Below, piece by piece: positions 1,460 through 41,800 of a stretch of DNA of 64,000 nt. The notes beneath the pieces are model-generated. The model saw nothing but the letters and a program-made list of their open reading frames with translations. It was not told where the DNA came from and searched no databases. Each line of letters starts with the position of its first letter. The stretch's first letter is position 1. This DNA comes from Oscillospiraceae bacterium (GTDB taxonomy: Bacteria > Bacillota > Clostridia > Oscillospirales > Oscillospiraceae). Location of the stretch: the NCBI GenBank assembly GCA_021771635.1, contig JAETOQ010000001.1, forward strand, positions 1 through 64,000. Reading direction: 5' to 3'. The position numbers and the translations under genes were made by a program.

Positions 1460-1987
1460 ATGGACAAGTTTCCGCTGTTGTGGGATGGCAAGGCGTCGGG
1501 AGAGTTGACGACGGAGCGGGAGGCGCTCTACACCTGGTTTTCCGCCTCATGCCAACTGCCCCAAAAGGGCCTGTGGTGCGCCTGGGTAGTCGGAGAGCGG
1601 GGAGAACTGCGCCTGGGGATCCTGGAGCCTGCCGGAAAGCAGGCGTCCATCCGCCGGCGGTTTTCCGACCGAATGACGATGCCCCTGGGAAAGATCCTGC
1701 GGGGGGAGCTGCGGCGGGCTGATGTTCCGGCCGGGGCAGAGGCCTGGGAGGCGGCCCCGGAGCCGGGCAGGCTGTTCCGGGCCGGATGGCTGCGGCAGCG
1801 CCTGCGGGGAATGACGGGAGCGTTGACCAGGACAGAAAATGGGCGTCGGTATCTGGCACTTTTATATGACAAGGGAAAACCCTTTCCACTGACGACGCTG
1901 TTTTGCTTTGCACGGATCAGGTGTATCCAGGGGAGGACCTATGCGGTGTTCGCCTTTGACGACCGGGAGACGCCGGTGTTTTGGTGA
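1460..1987 (+). CDS. Uncharacterised 175-aa protein
   Basis: An open frame with codon use like its neighbours, preceded by a purine-rich GAAGGGGG stretch about 13 bases before ATG 1460. No signal peptide, membrane segment or known catalytic motif is seen. The product has many Trp and Arg residues (for example LPQKGLWCAWVVGERG) and a C-terminal part rich in aromatic residues (TYAVFAFDDRETPVFW). It may be a small cytoplasmic protein limited to this clade. It stands alone after a terminator and upstream of the nrdR leader. Function unknown. Confidence 0.65.
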   Translation: MDKFPLLWDGKASGELTTEREALYTWFSASCQLPQKGLWCAWVVGERGELRLGILEPAGKQASIRRRFSDRMTMPLGKILRGELRRADVPAGAEAWEAAPEPGRLFRAGWLRQRLRGMTGALTRTENGRRYLALLYDKGKPFPLTTLFCFARIRCIQGRTYAVFAFDDRETPVFW

Positions 1988-3923: not shown

Positions 3924-3962
3924 ATGGGGCAGGCCCCATCACAAAGCGCCATGTACCTGTAA
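3924..3962 (+). CDS. Possible 12-codon leader ORF
   Basis: ATG 3924 is preceded by a near-ideal AAAGGAGG site at 3913-3920 and encodes a 12-residue peptide (MGQAPSQSAMYL) ending at TAA 3960. The last codons fall in a small hairpin (CCTGTAA pairing with TTACAGG, about 3955-3980). It lies about 415 bases before glmS. It could be a leader peptide, or a chance frame near the edge of a repeat. Coding status is uncertain. Confidence 0.25.
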   Translation: MGQAPSQSAMYL

Positions 3963-4104
3963 TGATATTTCACTTTACAGGATAACGAGGAGAAGAGAGA
4001 ATCGAAAATTCGGCGGATGCTCTTCCGTGCCCGCGGGCATGTGACACAGTCGGCAAATATGCGGGCGACCGCAAAACAGAGAGGCTGTGACCGCGGTAAA
4101 AGTG

Positions 4105-4340
4105 ACAAATGACTGCGCGTTTGTCCTTTTGATACGATTCTTCCACAGAAAATAGATATTTTCTGTGGAAAAGGCGTCGCTAAGCGCGCCGCCCATTTGT
4201 GCCACAGACACAAATACCGTCTCATAAGACTTCAACGCGCCTTCTGCGCTATAAAAAGCATTGGACAGTCGTTGGCGCTTCAGCGCCTTACGAATATCGC
4301 ATCCCCTTTGCGGGGAGACTTTGTCTGCTTTTTCATGAAG
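4105..4340 (+). repeat. Modular hairpin repeat R1, copy 1 (upstream of glmS)
   Basis: The element reads, in order: GATACGATTC; a long A/T-loop hairpin at 4141-4170 (TTCCACAGAAAATA and its complement); the block GGCGTCGCTAAGCGCGCCGCC; a hairpin at 4195-4215 (ATTTGTG/CACAAAT); the word GTCTCATAAGAC; ACGCGCCTTC.GCGCTATA; GTTGGCGCTTCAGCGCCTTACG; and a CCCC-TTTG-CGGGG hairpin near 4302-4315 followed by a T-rich stretch. The same order recurs at 6405-6617 on the other strand; partial copies are at 12060-12137 and 41640-41800. It separates the DUF421 operon from glmS. Confidence 0.75.
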
Positions 4341-4378
4341 TCTAGTATGATGCGAGACATTGATCAGGAGGATCTTCT

Positions 4379-6217
4379 ATGTGCGGAATCATTGGATTTG
4401 TGGGCCGCGAGCAGGCGGCCCCGATTTTGTTGGACGGATTGGCCCGGATGGAGTACCGGGGCTATGACTCCGCCGGCATTGCGGTGCGCTCTGATACCAG
4501 AGGCCTGCAGGTGAAAAAGACAAAGGGCCGGCTGCAGGTCCTGGCGGACCTGACACACGGCGGCGCCGACCTGGAGGGGACGCTGGGCATCGGCCATACC
4601 CGCTGGGCCACCCACGGCGAGCCCAACGACGTCAACGCCCATCCCCATATCAGCGAGAACGGCAGCATCGCCCTGGTCCACAACGGCATCATTGAAAACT
4701 ATCTGGAGATCAAGGAGCATCTGCAGAAGCTGGGGGTGACCTTCACCTCTGACACGGATTCGGAAGTGGTGGCCCAGCTTTTGGAATTCCACTACAACGA
4801 GTGCCACAACATGCTGGAGGCCGTGGGCCGTGTCCTGCGGCGCATCGAGGGTTCCTACGCCTTCGGTATCATCTGCTCCGACTATCCCAACGCCCTCATC
4901 GCCGCCCGGAAGGACAGCCCGCTGATCCTGGGCTTCGGGGAAAACGGCAACTTCATCGCCTCCGATGTGACGGCGGTCATCAAGTACACCCGGGACGTGG
5001 TCTACATGGATGACGGTGAGATCGCCGTGGTCACGTCCGACAGCGTGGATGTGTTTGACGACGAGCTGATCCCGGTGGAAAAACAGCATGCCCTGGTGGA
5101 TTGGGATGTCTCCGCCGCGGAAAAGGGCGGCTATGCCCACTTTATGTTCAAGGAGATCATGGAGCAGCCGGAGGCCATCCGCAAGACGGTGTCCCCCCGC
5201 ATTCGGGAGGGCCGGGTGGTCCTGGACGACGTGAAGCTCACGGCGGAGTATGTGAAAAACATCTCCCGGATCTTTATCATCGCCTGCGGCTCGTCCTACC
5301 ATGTGGGCATGGTCAGCAAATACAACTGGGAGCGGCTGCTGCGCCGCCCGGTGCAGGTGGACCTGGCCTCGGAATTCCGGTACAGTGATCCGCTGGTGGA
5401 TGAAAACACGCTGGTCATCGTCATCAGCCAGTCCGGCGAGACGCTGGACACCATGGCCGCCATGCGGGAGGCCAAGCGCCGGGGCGCCAGGACGCTGGCC
5501 GTGGTCAATGTGGTGGGCAGCTCCGTCGCCCGGGAGGCCGACGACGTGCTGTACACCTGGGCCGGTCCGGAGATCGCCGTGGCCACCACCAAGGCATATT
5601 CCACCCAGCTGGTGCTGATGGATCTGGTGGGGCTGTATCTGGCGGACCTGCTGGGAACTGTGGAGAGGGAGGAATACGACACCATTCTGGCGGAGCTTCA
5701 GCGGCTGCCGGAGAAGATGGAACGGTTCCTGGAACATTTTGAGGATGTGCAGTATTTTGCCTCCCGGTATTTCAACCACAGCTCCATTTTCTTCATTGGG
5801 CGGAATTTGGACTACGCCATGGGCCTGGAAGGCTCTCTGAAGCTGAAGGAGATCAGCTACATCCACTCCGAGGCCTACGCCTCCGGCGAGCTGAAGCACG
5901 GCACCATCTCCCTGATCGAGCCGGGCACCCTGGTGGTGGCCCTGGGGACCTACGCGCCGCTGTTCGACAAGGCCATGAGCAATGTGGTGGAGGTGAAGGC
6001 CCGGGGCGCGGAGGTCCTGGCCGTCACGACGGAGACCTTCCGGGAGAAGATGGAAAAGACCGCCGATTCCACCATCGTGATCCCGGACACCCATGTGATC
6101 CTCCAGCCCTCCCTGGGCGTGGTGCCCCTGCAGCTGTTTGCCTATTACGTGGCGCTGCAGCGGGGCTGCGACATCGACAAGCCCCGGAATCTGGCAAAGT
6201 CCGTCACCGTGGAATGA
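4379..6217 (+). CDS. glmS: Glutamine--fructose-6-phosphate aminotransferase (isomerizing)
   Basis: GlmS makes glucosamine-6-phosphate from fructose-6-phosphate and glutamine, the entry to UDP-GlcNAc and peptidoglycan. The 612-aa product begins MCGIIGFVG, with the Cys2 nucleophile of the class II glutaminase domain. It has HTRWATHGEPND and HNGIIENY in the glutaminase domain (to about residue 220), followed by two SIS sugar-isomerase domains (SQSGETLDT near 345 and LEGSLKLKEISYIHSEAY near 480). The end, DKPRNLAKSVTVE, is the normal family terminus. ATG 4379 follows AGGAGG. No glmS ribozyme was recognised in the leader, which instead holds repeat R1. Confidence 0.98.
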   Translation: MCGIIGFVGREQAAPILLDGLARMEYRGYDSAGIAVRSDTRGLQVKKTKGRLQVLADLTHGGADLEGTLGIGHTRWATHGEPNDVNAHPHISENGSIALVHNGIIENYLEIKEHLQKLGVTFTSDTDSEVVAQLLEFHYNECHNMLEAVGRVLRRIEGSYAFGIICSDYPNALIAARKDSPLILGFGENGNFIASDVTAVIKYTRDVVYMDDGEIAVVTSDSVDVFDDELIPVEKQHALVDWDVSAAEKGGYAHFMFKEIMEQPEAIRKTVSPRIREGRVVLDDVKLTAEYVKNISRIFIIACGSSYHVGMVSKYNWERLLRRPVQVDLASEFRYSDPLVDENTLVIVISQSGETLDTMAAMREAKRRGARTLAVVNVVGSSVAREADDVLYTWAGPEIAVATTKAYSTQLVLMDLVGLYLADLLGTVEREEYDTILAELQRLPEKMERFLEHFEDVQYFASRYFNHSSIFFIGRNLDYAMGLEGSLKLKEISYIHSEAYASGELKHGTISLIEPGTLVVALGTYAPLFDKAMSNVVEVKARGAEVLAVTTETFREKMEKTADSTIVIPDTHVILQPSLGVVPLQLFAYYVALQRGCDIDKPRNLAKSVTVE

Positions 6218-6262: not shown

Positions 6263-6404
6263 TTGTTTCTCTCACGTTTTTCTCACGGTGTGAGGGATCA
6301 CCACAGTCCCATCAGCAAAGGGACGGATCGAGATCAAAAAAATTGAAATTGCCCCTTGACTCTCCCGTTATGGCAGGGCGTATGCTGTACTTGAGCTCAA
6401 CTAT

Positions 6405-6617
6405 AACTTGTCAAAAAGGTTGAACACCTTTTTCCCCGCAAGGGGGACGCGGCAACCGTAAGCGGCGGAGCCGCCAACGGCTGCCCAGTATAGCGCGAAG
6501 GCGCGTCAAGTTCTTATGAGACGTATTTTGCACTGTTAAGGCGCAAAATGGAAACGCACCAATGCGTTTCCATTCCCGATAAAACTGAATCGTTTTATCG
6601 GGAATTCGTATAAAAAG
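6405..6617 (-). repeat. Modular hairpin repeat R1, copy 2
   Basis: Read on the minus strand it carries the same words as copy 1: TATACGA, then a hairpin (TTCCCGATAAAAC...GTTTTATCGGGAA, 6583-6606), a second hairpin (GGAAACGCA...TGCGTTTCC), CGTCTCATAAGAACTT, ACGCGCCTTCGCGCTATA, CGTTGGCGGCTCCGCCGCTTACGG, CCCCCTTGCGGGG, and finally AAAAAGGTGTTCAACCTTTTT. Hairpin stems differ from copy 1 but remain paired. The 730-base interval 6218-6949 contains this element, the terminator before it and a tandem repeat after it; no gene is seen. Confidence 0.75.
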
Positions 6618-6823: not shown

Positions 6824-6874
6824 CCCTTTACCTTTACCCTTACCTTTACCCTTACCTTTACCCTTACCTTAACC
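6824..6874. repeat. Telomere-like tandem repeat, 12-bp unit
   Basis: Three exact copies of TTTACCCTTACC at 6833-6868, flanked by partial units (CCCTTTACC before, TTAACC after). It lies about 80 bases upstream of the DUF6291 gene. The copy number is likely to vary by slippage. If translated it would give alternating Thr/Phe/Leu, but the downstream gene start at 6950 excludes it. Confidence 0.85.
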
Positions 6875-8847: not shown

Positions 8848-8855
8848 ATATCATG

Positions 8856-9220
8856 GCGCGAGCAAAACTGTAAGCCGGGTTCTGTATTTGACAGTCATCT
8901 ATCTAGGCGTACCGTTGCCGGCACGCTCAAGCCACCCCGGGAGCGGCCGGGCCAGCCTTGGAGTTGCCTCCTGCTCCCATACCGGTGTTGCTCCGGATAG
9001 AGTTTACAGCGACGGACAGTTCCCAGCCGTCGGGTGCGCTCTTACCGCACCTTTCCACCCTTACCTGTGCGGCCAAGCCGCACAGGCGGTATATCTCTGT
9101 TGCACTTTTCCTGAAGTCGCCTTCGGCGGGCGTTACCCGTTATCCTTGCCCTGTGGAGCCCGGACTTTCCTCATGGACGGCCTTTCGGCCTGCCCACGCG
9201 ACTGTCTGTTTTCCTCGCGC
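8856..9220 (-). ncRNA. rnpB: RNase P RNA (class A)
   Basis: The catalytic RNA of RNase P, which matures tRNA 5' ends. On the minus strand the hallmark GAGGAAAGTCCGGGCTCC is seen near 9160-9177, followed by CAGGGCAAGGATAACGGGTAA, and the 3' end has ACAGAACCCGGCTTAC. The outermost helix P1 can be drawn from GCGCGAGGAAAAC at 9208-9220 and GTTTTGCTCGCGC at 8856-8868, which pair at 12 of 13 positions. These ends give about 365 nt, normal for the class. A terminator follows at 8813-8847. Confidence 0.95.
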
Positions 9221-11247: not shown

Positions 11248-11952
11248 ATGAGACCTGGCTTTTTCCACTACCGGCGGCGGATGGACCGCCGTTTCCTGGC
11301 GCGGGCGGTCCTTTTCGCACTGACGGCGCTGGCCCTGACGCTGGTGATCTTCGCCACGTCACAGCTCCGCCCGCTGCTGGAGAGCCTTGCCACCACCAGG
11401 GTGAGCAACACTGTGAACCGCATCGTCTCCGAGGCGGTGGACGAGGCCATTGCAAACGGCGAGATCAGCTATGAACAGCTGATCTCCTTTGAAAAGGACA
11501 ACGAGGGCAAGATCACCGCCGTCCACAGCAACATGGCGGCCTGCAACCGCCTGCAGTCGGAGATCCTGGACATCATTCTGGCCCGCATCGACCAGGTGTC
11601 CGCCCGGGAGCTGTCCATCCCCATCGGGACGCTCTCCGGCTCCTCGCTGCTGGCGGGCCGGGGGCCGCGGATCTCGGTGCGGATGGAGTCCGTCGGCTCC
11701 TCCACCGCCAGGTTTCAAAATGAGTTCATCGACGCGGGCATCAACCAGACCAAGCACCAGATCGTGCTGAACATCGACGTATACGTCAGCATCCTGCTGC
11801 CGGGCTTCACCACGGTCACCCAGGTCTCCAACGCCGTCACCGTGGCGGAGACCGTCATCGTCGGCTCCGTGCCGGACACCTACACCTATTTTTCCACCAC
11901 CCCCGCCGACTACGCAGGGGATGCGAAGGACTATATCCTGAATGGAAATTAA
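11248..11952 (+). CDS. yunB: Sporulation protein YunB
   Basis: A 234-aa sporulation membrane protein. It has a basic N-terminus, one membrane helix (about residues 20-40, LARAVLFALTALALTLVIF), then the YunB domain with VSNTVNRIVSEAVDEAI, IPIGTLSGSSLLAGRGP and the late IVLNIDVYVSILLPGF. These last two segments are typical of YunB, a protein needed for normal sporulation in Bacillus. ATG 11248 follows GGGAGGGGAGG; an earlier in-frame ATG at 11224 has no site. The stop codon TAA is the first bases of repeat R2 copy 1, so the repeat abuts the gene. Confidence 0.9.
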   Translation: MRPGFFHYRRRMDRRFLARAVLFALTALALTLVIFATSQLRPLLESLATTRVSNTVNRIVSEAVDEAIANGEISYEQLISFEKDNEGKITAVHSNMAACNRLQSEILDIILARIDQVSARELSIPIGTLSGSSLLAGRGPRISVRMESVGSSTARFQNEFIDAGINQTKHQIVLNIDVYVSILLPGFTTVTQVSNAVTVAETVIVGSVPDTYTYFSTTPADYAGDAKDYILNGN

Positions 11953-12066: not shown

Positions 12067-12137
12067 CTGAAGGGCGGCGCGCTTAGCGACGCCTTCTTCC
12101 GCAGAAAATATCTATTTTCTGTGGAAGAATCGTATTA
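12060..12137 (-). repeat. Modular hairpin repeat R1, copy 3 (partial)
   Basis: On the minus strand it reads AATACGATTCTTCCACAG, a long A/T-loop hairpin, AAGGCGTCGCTAAGCGCGCC and GCC. This is nearly identical over about 60 bases to copy 1 at 4131-4194. Only the left part of the full element is present, joined to repeat R2. Confidence 0.8.
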
Positions 12138-12142
12138 AACCC

Positions 12143-12292
12143 AAAATTGATAATTCATAATTGACAATGAACGTGCGCTGGTGGGGAAAGCCCTCTTCGA
12201 TGTGGGCCTTTCCCCCCTCCCTGACACCAGGGCCGCCAGCGCCCGCCAAGCTCCATAATTCTCAATGATCCATGATCAATTATGAATGACTG
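12143..12292. repeat. Nested fold-back element before ligA
   Basis: Three nested inverted pairs are visible: TTCATAATTGA (12153-12163) with TCAATTATGAA (12276-12286); GCGCTGG (about 12175-12181) with CCAGCGC (about 12236-12242); and GGGGAAAG with CTTTCCCC (12182-12215). The whole can fold back on itself like a small MITE. It ends just before the GGAGG of ligA, so it forms part of that leader. Confidence 0.6.
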
Positions 12293-41635: not shown

Positions 41636-41800
41636 TCAAATGACTGCAAAAGAAACGTTTTTATGAGACGTGGCGGTGCACGCACCGTGCGCCGCCAGTG
41701 TGCGCAGCACGCGGGATCTCAAATAAAACATTTTGAGATCCGTATCACACGCCAACAGGCTCTGCCCACCTGAAAACAGGTATTTTCAGGTGGACGATAC
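41636..41800 (-). repeat. Modular hairpin repeat R1, copy 4 (rlmN-rsmB gap)
   Basis: On the minus strand it reads GTATCG, hairpin (CCACCTGAAAA/TTTTCAGGTGG, 41766-41793), GTGTGATACG, hairpin (GGATCTCAAAAT/ATTTGAGATCC, 41714-41741), a GC-rich hairpin (TGGCGG.GCAC/GTGC.CCGCCA, 41671-41697), and CGTCTCATAA. It overlaps the last codons of rsmB. Flanking words agree with the other copies; stems differ but stay paired. Its left edge AAATGACTGC is also found at copy 1. Confidence 0.75.

Follow-up and report, generated by a model that had tools for sequence, protein, structure and literature searches.

A folded MITE-like repeat family of Oscillospiraceae that duplicates TNA and favours stop codons

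In an Oscillospiraceae bacterium, a hairpin-rich sequence separates the glmS ribozyme (3934-4099) from the glmS gene (ORF 4379-6217), and similar sequences recur nearby. What kind of element are they, and what keeps their hairpins intact? The window, the whole stretch of 64,000 nucleotides that we analysed (contig JAETOQ010000001.1), contains four copies of this repeat, here named R1. A preliminary description had listed four copies of one modular family with paired changes in its stems, and had proposed gathering further genomic copies, testing for covariation, and comparing copy positions between strains. Its four copies are real, all four are recovered by our covariance model, and the flanking words that it gave as shared are present at all four places that it named. 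Its bounds needed correction (to 4130-4350, 6397-6613, about 12073-12137, and about 41657-41747), and only two of the copies run from end to end, the other two being truncated. The features are as follows.

4130-4350, plus strand: complete R1 copy with the optional module, between the glmS ribozyme and glmS; TGA at 4130-4132 and TGA at 4348-4350
4141-4170, plus strand: hairpin P1, adjoining the left end of R1 (from the fold and from covariation of P1)
4173-4215, plus strand: hairpins P2 and P3 of R1 (from the fold; outside the covariation counts)
4218-4227, plus strand: core CGTCTCATAA of R1 (from a word search)
4228-4342, plus strand: P4-closed domain of R1 (P4 being 4228-4234 paired with 4336-4342), holding P5, the module, and P6
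about 4261-4314, plus strand: optional module in the first R1 copy (from its likeness to the module elsewhere)
6397-6613, minus strand: second R1 copy, with the module; right end worn, outer triplets TTA and TGA, unequal
about 12073-12137, minus strand: truncated R1, from the left end to P2, fused to another repeat
about 41657-41747, minus strand: truncated R1, from the left end to just past the core; outer triplet TGA at 41745-41747

The plan of R1 can be written as TNA-[TAC ... three hairpins ... CGTCTCATAA ... closed multi-hairpin domain ... GTA]-TNA. Complete copies open with TNA-TAC(T/G), continue through P1 to P3, the core, and the domain closed by P4, and end in TAGTA-TNA. Inside the P4-closed domain lie P5, P6, and, in only some of the copies, an extra module. 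The element measures roughly 110-230 bp and encodes no protein of its own. Hairpin sequences diverge widely among subfamilies while the plan stays constant. The earlier claim of hairpins that differ among copies and remain complementary is confirmed, both by alignment and by covariation. One hairpin, CCACCTGAAAA, had been assigned to the fourth copy in error; it lies at about 41766-41793, outside that copy. Our main alignment, A1, was built from 56 of 60 R1 copies 135-176 bp long, with the two copies of L028, L097, and L102 (the site of L061) dropped; a further 20 longer and 3 shorter copies of the 83 are likewise omitted. The inverted ends TACTA and TAGTA emerge from A1, and their longer likeness is imperfect, extending by eye over about 18-20 bp. 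The core is invariant in A1, although the copies in A1 were themselves gathered by that word. Folding is strong (z = -5.8 and -10.3). At gathering score, the only Rfam families in the window are the glmS ribozyme and RNase P (8855-9217, minus strand); none covers an R1 copy, in keeping with the earlier statement that no named element has this build. With E values up to 1 allowed, a single match falls within an R1 copy, CRISPR-DR57 at 6419-6456 (E 0.34).

R1 is a multicopy family well beyond the window. The core occurs 38 times in the 2.80-Mb source genome, three of these in the window, compared with one occurrence for a reversed-pattern control, and by eye 36 of the 38 places lie inside R1 (the exceptions being L022 and L029). 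A covariance model trained on 56 R1 copies and searched with the stricter filters of Infernal returns 45 matches in the source genome, which supplies the further copies that had been called for. Among 61 genomes of the genus, 19 have any match, source included, and 42 have none reported; other genomes yield 24, 20, 16, 14, 13, and 10 matches, and part of what is counted for G296, G297, and G264 is not true R1, since the weaker model matches include members of the related R2 repeats (L188-L191, L193). Agreement of coordinates suggests that G255 and G273 are the MAGs labelled Oscillibacter and Dysosmobacter from which L108 and L088 come. The strict core is found in 7 of 250 family genomes, again including the source. 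Scanning named genomes with a sequence pattern yielded 78 stretches, labelled nearly exclusively as Oscillibacter, Dysosmobacter, Oscillospiraceae, Clostridiales, Clostridia, Butyricicoccus, or Flavonifractor, with one Oscillibacter valericigenes isolate among them. Matches in Treponema (L043) and Dictyobacter (L086) proved to be chance occurrences of the core in which the element is absent by eye. Two of three stretches from viral contigs carry R1, the third (L134) being a chance core match; a plasmid search returned no R1, and a phage search found the module only and no R1. Some copies stand back to back or nested (L019, L026). One insertion, by eye, is common to two genomes (L061, L102), so not all R1 insertions are recent.

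The flanks of R1 carry the signature of a target duplication. We scored the ends, leaving out the outer triplet, at 122 core places (two more lay too near a locus end), and both ends passed in 81. The outer triplets are identical in 66 of these 81 and are always TNA (TGA 35, TAA 21, TCA 6, TTA 4), where about 26 would be expected by chance as reckoned from the observed frequencies. The 15 unequal cases include the chance match L043 and plainly mispicked ends, as well as copies with clear ends (L020, L052, L069, L097, L107, L109). Comparison with relatives revealed empty sites at two loci. At the L011 site, where the source genome reads TAA-element-TAA, all 11 congener loci fetched are empty: their sequence runs through without a break, and the stop triplet is present once (TAA in 10; TGA in one, L155). 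At the glmS site, R1 is absent from 18 of the 19 congener loci fetched, which have no insert of any kind there. Each empty-site search covered 61 genomes and had matches in 55 (L011) and 56 (glmS), the junctions being read in the fetched loci only. The nineteenth glmS locus (L261, congener G296) carries an insert that is also rich in hairpins but is not R1, close to the position that R1 occupies in the window (1700-1950 of that locus, between the ribozyme and glmS), which makes the place a possible insertion hot spot. At about 1134-1146 of L015, a second CTAGTATAA directly follows R1, apparently left over from an element that had inserted earlier at this stop codon.

R1 shows several general traits of bacterial MITEs: it is short, multicopy, and without its own protein, and it has terminal inverted repeats and a target duplication. 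We conclude that R1 is very probably a non-autonomous, MITE-like mobile element whose ends are recognized in trans, which duplicates TNA and prefers the exact stop codon. The preliminary description had missed this mobile character, with its TNA duplication, empty sites, and stop-codon preference.

Which enzyme would move it? TNA targets are a trait of some IS5 subgroups. One locus (L179) has a transposase ORF (Pfam DDE_Tnp_1 and DUF772) between the two P1 arms of an R1 copy, as would be expected if an IS5-type element inside the P1 loop were the autonomous parent of R1. That parentage is hardly credible. Inverted ends of its own (GGCAACACCGC...) bound the L179 insert, as does, by our reading, an ATAG duplication of its own, and relatives at 69-78% identity bear similar ends outside R1; we rejected L179 as an autonomous R1 because these ends mark the insert as a separate IS, unrelated to R1, that is nested within the loop of P1. 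The IS5-type elements examined have ends unlike those of R1. Searches with PF01609, PF13586, and PF13359 found no match in the source genome; of nine congeners searched, seven have PF13586 and two PF13359. No paired ends 450-4000 bp apart turned up in the set of loci searched for them. The end pattern TNATACKNNTTCTTGATAAAA occurs in 10 of 400 family genomes, source included, and the 20 end-pattern stretches fetched consist of short or fragmentary elements, ends of contigs, and matches that stand alone; none has a paired copy as long as an IS within 3 kb. The relatives found by this pattern mostly do not have the core, and we name them R2 and R3.

The sites of R1 were compared with the positions of genes. 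Our test set comprised 75 copies with identical triplets, less one shared insertion, and genes were called with a rough, home-made codon-score caller. By this caller, 34 of the 74 distinct insertions sit exactly on a stop codon; of the rest, 4 lie 1-30 bp after a stop, 8 lie 31-100 bp after, 22 lie farther away, 2 have no gene end in reach, and 4 are in coding sequence. Control TNA sites from the same loci number 334 on stops, 311 at 1-30 bp, 512 at 31-100 bp, 1602 farther, 87 with no gene end in reach, and 11185 in coding sequence. The stop-codon excess corresponds to an odds ratio of 7.1 against other non-coding TNA sites (Fisher p about 1e-13) and of 7.9 against TNA sites 1-30 bp downstream (Fisher p about 2e-6). 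With the home-made caller, the excess exactly at the stop goes beyond what would follow if R1 simply avoided coding sequence or were drawn to gene ends in general. A simpler ORF test, which requires a start codon 60 or more codons ahead of the triplet and no stop in between, places 45 of 83 insertions on stops in a set chosen for TNA on both sides; the codon-score caller assigns the same 83 as 36 on stops, 42 intergenic, and 5 coding. A first gene caller (18 of 83 on stops, 39 of 83 coding) was dropped as too greedy, with many spurious frames. Read from the left end, the triplet is TRA in 63 of the 74 insertions and TYA in 11, and in the set of 83 the bias holds both for insertions on stops (33 versus 3) and for intergenic ones (33 versus 9). 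Stop insertions are mostly in sense orientation, downstream of genes. Since the three-base duplication rebuilds the stop codon, the protein-coding part should stay intact.

The excess on stops could instead be survivorship, with no target preference beyond TNA and with stop-codon insertions persisting as the least harmful ones. Purging is evidently strong, as only 4 of 74 insertions are coding compared with about 80% of control sites, and the ends of GTAG REPs are reported to provide neighbouring ORFs with their stop codons (PMC3733652). We consider this account a possible but distinctly less favoured one. A TNA site 1-30 bp past a stop should be about as harmless, yet 4 insertions are found there against 34 on stops, the controls being nearly equal (311 and 334). 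The surplus of TRA over TYA, moreover, extends to intergenic insertions away from stops, and in both classes the base two places ahead of the triplet is often T (raw shares, 58% of 31 insertions and 67% of 33). A further reading is that integration is steered to stop codons as such, for example by a factor or nucleic-acid state at termination and not by DNA sequence alone. We hold this to be quite unlikely; if true, it would amount to a "safe harbour" strategy in which the three-base duplication always restores the stop.

Conservation of the hairpins was assessed in A1 over 31 pairs in P1, P4, P5, and P6. P2 and P3 remain outside the counts because they do not align across subfamilies. Of all cells, 95.8% are paired, and 22 of the 31 pairs have changed on both sides; none of 500 shuffles scored as high as A1 on any measure except the count of pair types (44 of 500), and sliding the partner strand as a control lowered pairing to 36-55%. 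In a tree-aware test (FastTree tree, Fitch reconstruction), we counted 40 concerted, pair-keeping branch changes against a mean of 2.4 and a maximum of 9 in 200 simulations under a simple null of our own, not that of R-scape. The earlier view of one modular family with paired stem changes is thus borne out. By helix, the changes number 19 in P1, 13 in P4, 2 in P5, and 6 in P6, and the evidence is carried by P1 and P4, since for P5 and P6 the largest simulated value is the same as the count seen.

Paired changes could also arise in the absence of selection, by template switching that perfects imperfect hairpin arms. Near-perfect short-loop hairpins are the usual substrate of quasipalindrome correction, and P1 and P3 are of just this form. 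Wobble pairs point the same way in being free of skew toward G-U: after each copy was re-paired (P1, P3, P4, P5), there were 37 distinct G-U and 56 distinct A-C wobbles (p 0.06). By eye G-U had appeared the commoner of the two, an appearance caused by one subfamily out of register, and re-pairing removed it. P4, however, pairs across other hairpins and still has its 13 concerted changes where 0.7 were expected (maximum 3), and we judge template switching unlikely as the explanation.

The same wobble counts bear on whether R1 is chiefly a host RNA element, a 3'-UTR or leader regulator kept and spread for the control that its fold exerts over the genes beside it, a role that has been suggested for certain ERIC and Correia copies. 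Such a role would accord with the strong folds, the covariation, the mostly sense orientation of downstream copies (the 33 TRA against 3 TYA on stops), the copy in the glmS leader, and the insertion common to L061 and L102. It seems very unlikely to us nonetheless, as single copies have no excess of G-U over A-C (37 against 56), almost every relative fetched is empty at the two sites studied, and copy number is erratic among genomes. Because G-U wobbles do not exceed A-C in single copies, folding of resident copies as sense RNA is not supported. We infer that the wobble pattern reflects selection on spreading lineages together with decay of resident copies. The earlier suggestion that folding is what matters therefore stands for the lineages of the family and finds no support in single resident copies.

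Returning to R1 as a mobile element, we propose the following course of events. A putative transposase acting in trans would recognize the short, imperfect ends TACTA and TAGTA and would make a 3-base staggered cut at TNA, leading to the TNA duplication seen in the flanks and empty sites. The target triplet, read from the left end, is mostly TRA, that is, TGA or TAA, and where it is a stop codon, duplication would rebuild the stop at the end of the gene. R1 placed on a stop, mostly in sense orientation, would then be transcribed as 3' sequence. Its hairpins and P4 were presumably kept by selection on spreading lineages, probably because folding is important to mobility or helps the host to tolerate R1. 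Landing exactly on stop codons, with self-repair through the three-base duplication, would be a clean example of low-harm multiplication in a gene-dense genome. R1 makes target choice by a small repeat directly testable, and it adds structured 3' ends and leaders to host genes, in one case at a glmS ribozyme.

Although the MITE-like kind is known, the build and targeting habit of R1 are not described in the literature searched. No R1-like family in Oscillospiraceae appears among the matches listed, from literature mainly outside subscription journals, and no element favouring stop codons through its duplication appears among the literature matches listed (including PMC2267715 and PMC5896051, as far as their available text goes). 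A review describes mobile repeats of this small, folded sort in enterobacteria, Neisseria, and streptococci (PMC2229807). The enterobacterial ERIC/RU-1, which is 127 bp long, is presented there as an intergenic repeat with short terminal inverted repeats, target duplication, and a folded transcript, with no matching IS ends reported (PMC2229807). R1 resembles it in being intergenic and folded, with short terminal inverted repeats and a target duplication. ERIC inserts at TA, whereas R1 uses TNA, has several hairpins and a closed domain, and prefers stops; the two are set apart here by description and not by sequence. YPAL/RU-2 of Yersinia is about 168 bp, folded, and co-expressed with upstream genes, with empty and filled sites known, duplications of 3 to 26 bp, and termini without the usual inverted ends (PMC2229807, available text). 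R1 shares the folding and the empty and filled sites, but its 3-bp duplication and inverted ends separate it from YPAL.

BOX of Streptococcus is modular with folded transcripts (PMC3049150); R1 is like it in modular composition, but the modules differ, and the available text on BOX describes no exact stop-codon preference (PMC3049150). RUP is small, inserts at TA, is thought to be moved in trans by IS630-Spn1 through shared ends, and is, in the available text of that review, the only bacterial repeat with ends matching an autonomous IS (PMC2229807). R1 differs in its use of TNA, and no partner IS was found in the places searched. The GTAG/CGTC REPs are hairpin repeats of 20-40 bp lying mainly downstream of genes, and GTAG REP ends often supply the stop codon (PMC3733652, available text). 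In R1 the stop is instead rebuilt by duplication, and no target duplication is described for REPs in the available text of the same source (PMC3733652). A RAYT-moved REP is a single 20-40 bp palindrome with GTAG or CGTC at one end, unlike the several hairpins, TAC/GTA ends, and duplication of R1; CGTC does occur at the start of the inner core of R1.

The optional module is not confined to R1. The motif GTTGGCG...CCCC-TTGC-GGGG, earlier taken as a mark of the family, is this module; it does belong to R1 copies but also occurs inside hairpin repeats that are not R1. Four gut phage records match it (three were read), in each case read inside non-R1 hairpin repeats. It is present in all 14 congener stretches fetched for it, one of them from genome G261, which has no R1 model match. 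The module is thus a separate building block, given its occurrence in other repeats, in phage records, and in a genome free of R1, and the earlier term "modular" was apt. TTGGATAGCCGTTGGCGCTTCAGCGCCTTACGGATATCGCATACCCCTTGCGGG or a variant is seen on different closing stems in other repeats and gut phage contigs (L265-L278; L142-L144), and the module TTGGATAGCCGTTGGCGCTTCAGCGCCTTACGGATATCGCATACCCCTTGCGGG may be a repeat family of its own.

R2 and R3 (L113, L120-L123, L125-L127, L129, L188-L191, L193, and several of L225-L244) have ends like those of R1 and a different interior; matches to the end pattern number 45 in genome G372 and 30 in G333. In 19 listed places, some of which are a single copy seen from either strand, the R2 triplets are TAA or TTA, and 6 of these places satisfy a stop test set at 50 codons; TCA or TGA flanks further R2 copies (L189). 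In L188, positions 1-152 on the minus strand give a T-box-like match of 64.7 bits, below the family cut-off of 93 and interrupted by the locus end. Another repeat, with the end AGAACCTGTATTCATAACCG, lies in the window at 11952 and 16091 and adjoins or sits inside R1 copies in the source genome (L026, L027, L031, L114, L130); by eye it seems to use TNA as well. The window also holds an inverted-repeat stretch at 12143-12290 (arms 12153-12169 and 12271-12287), just before a DNA ligase gene, and a tandem array of TTACCTTTACCC at 6825-6874, with about four copies of 12 bases.
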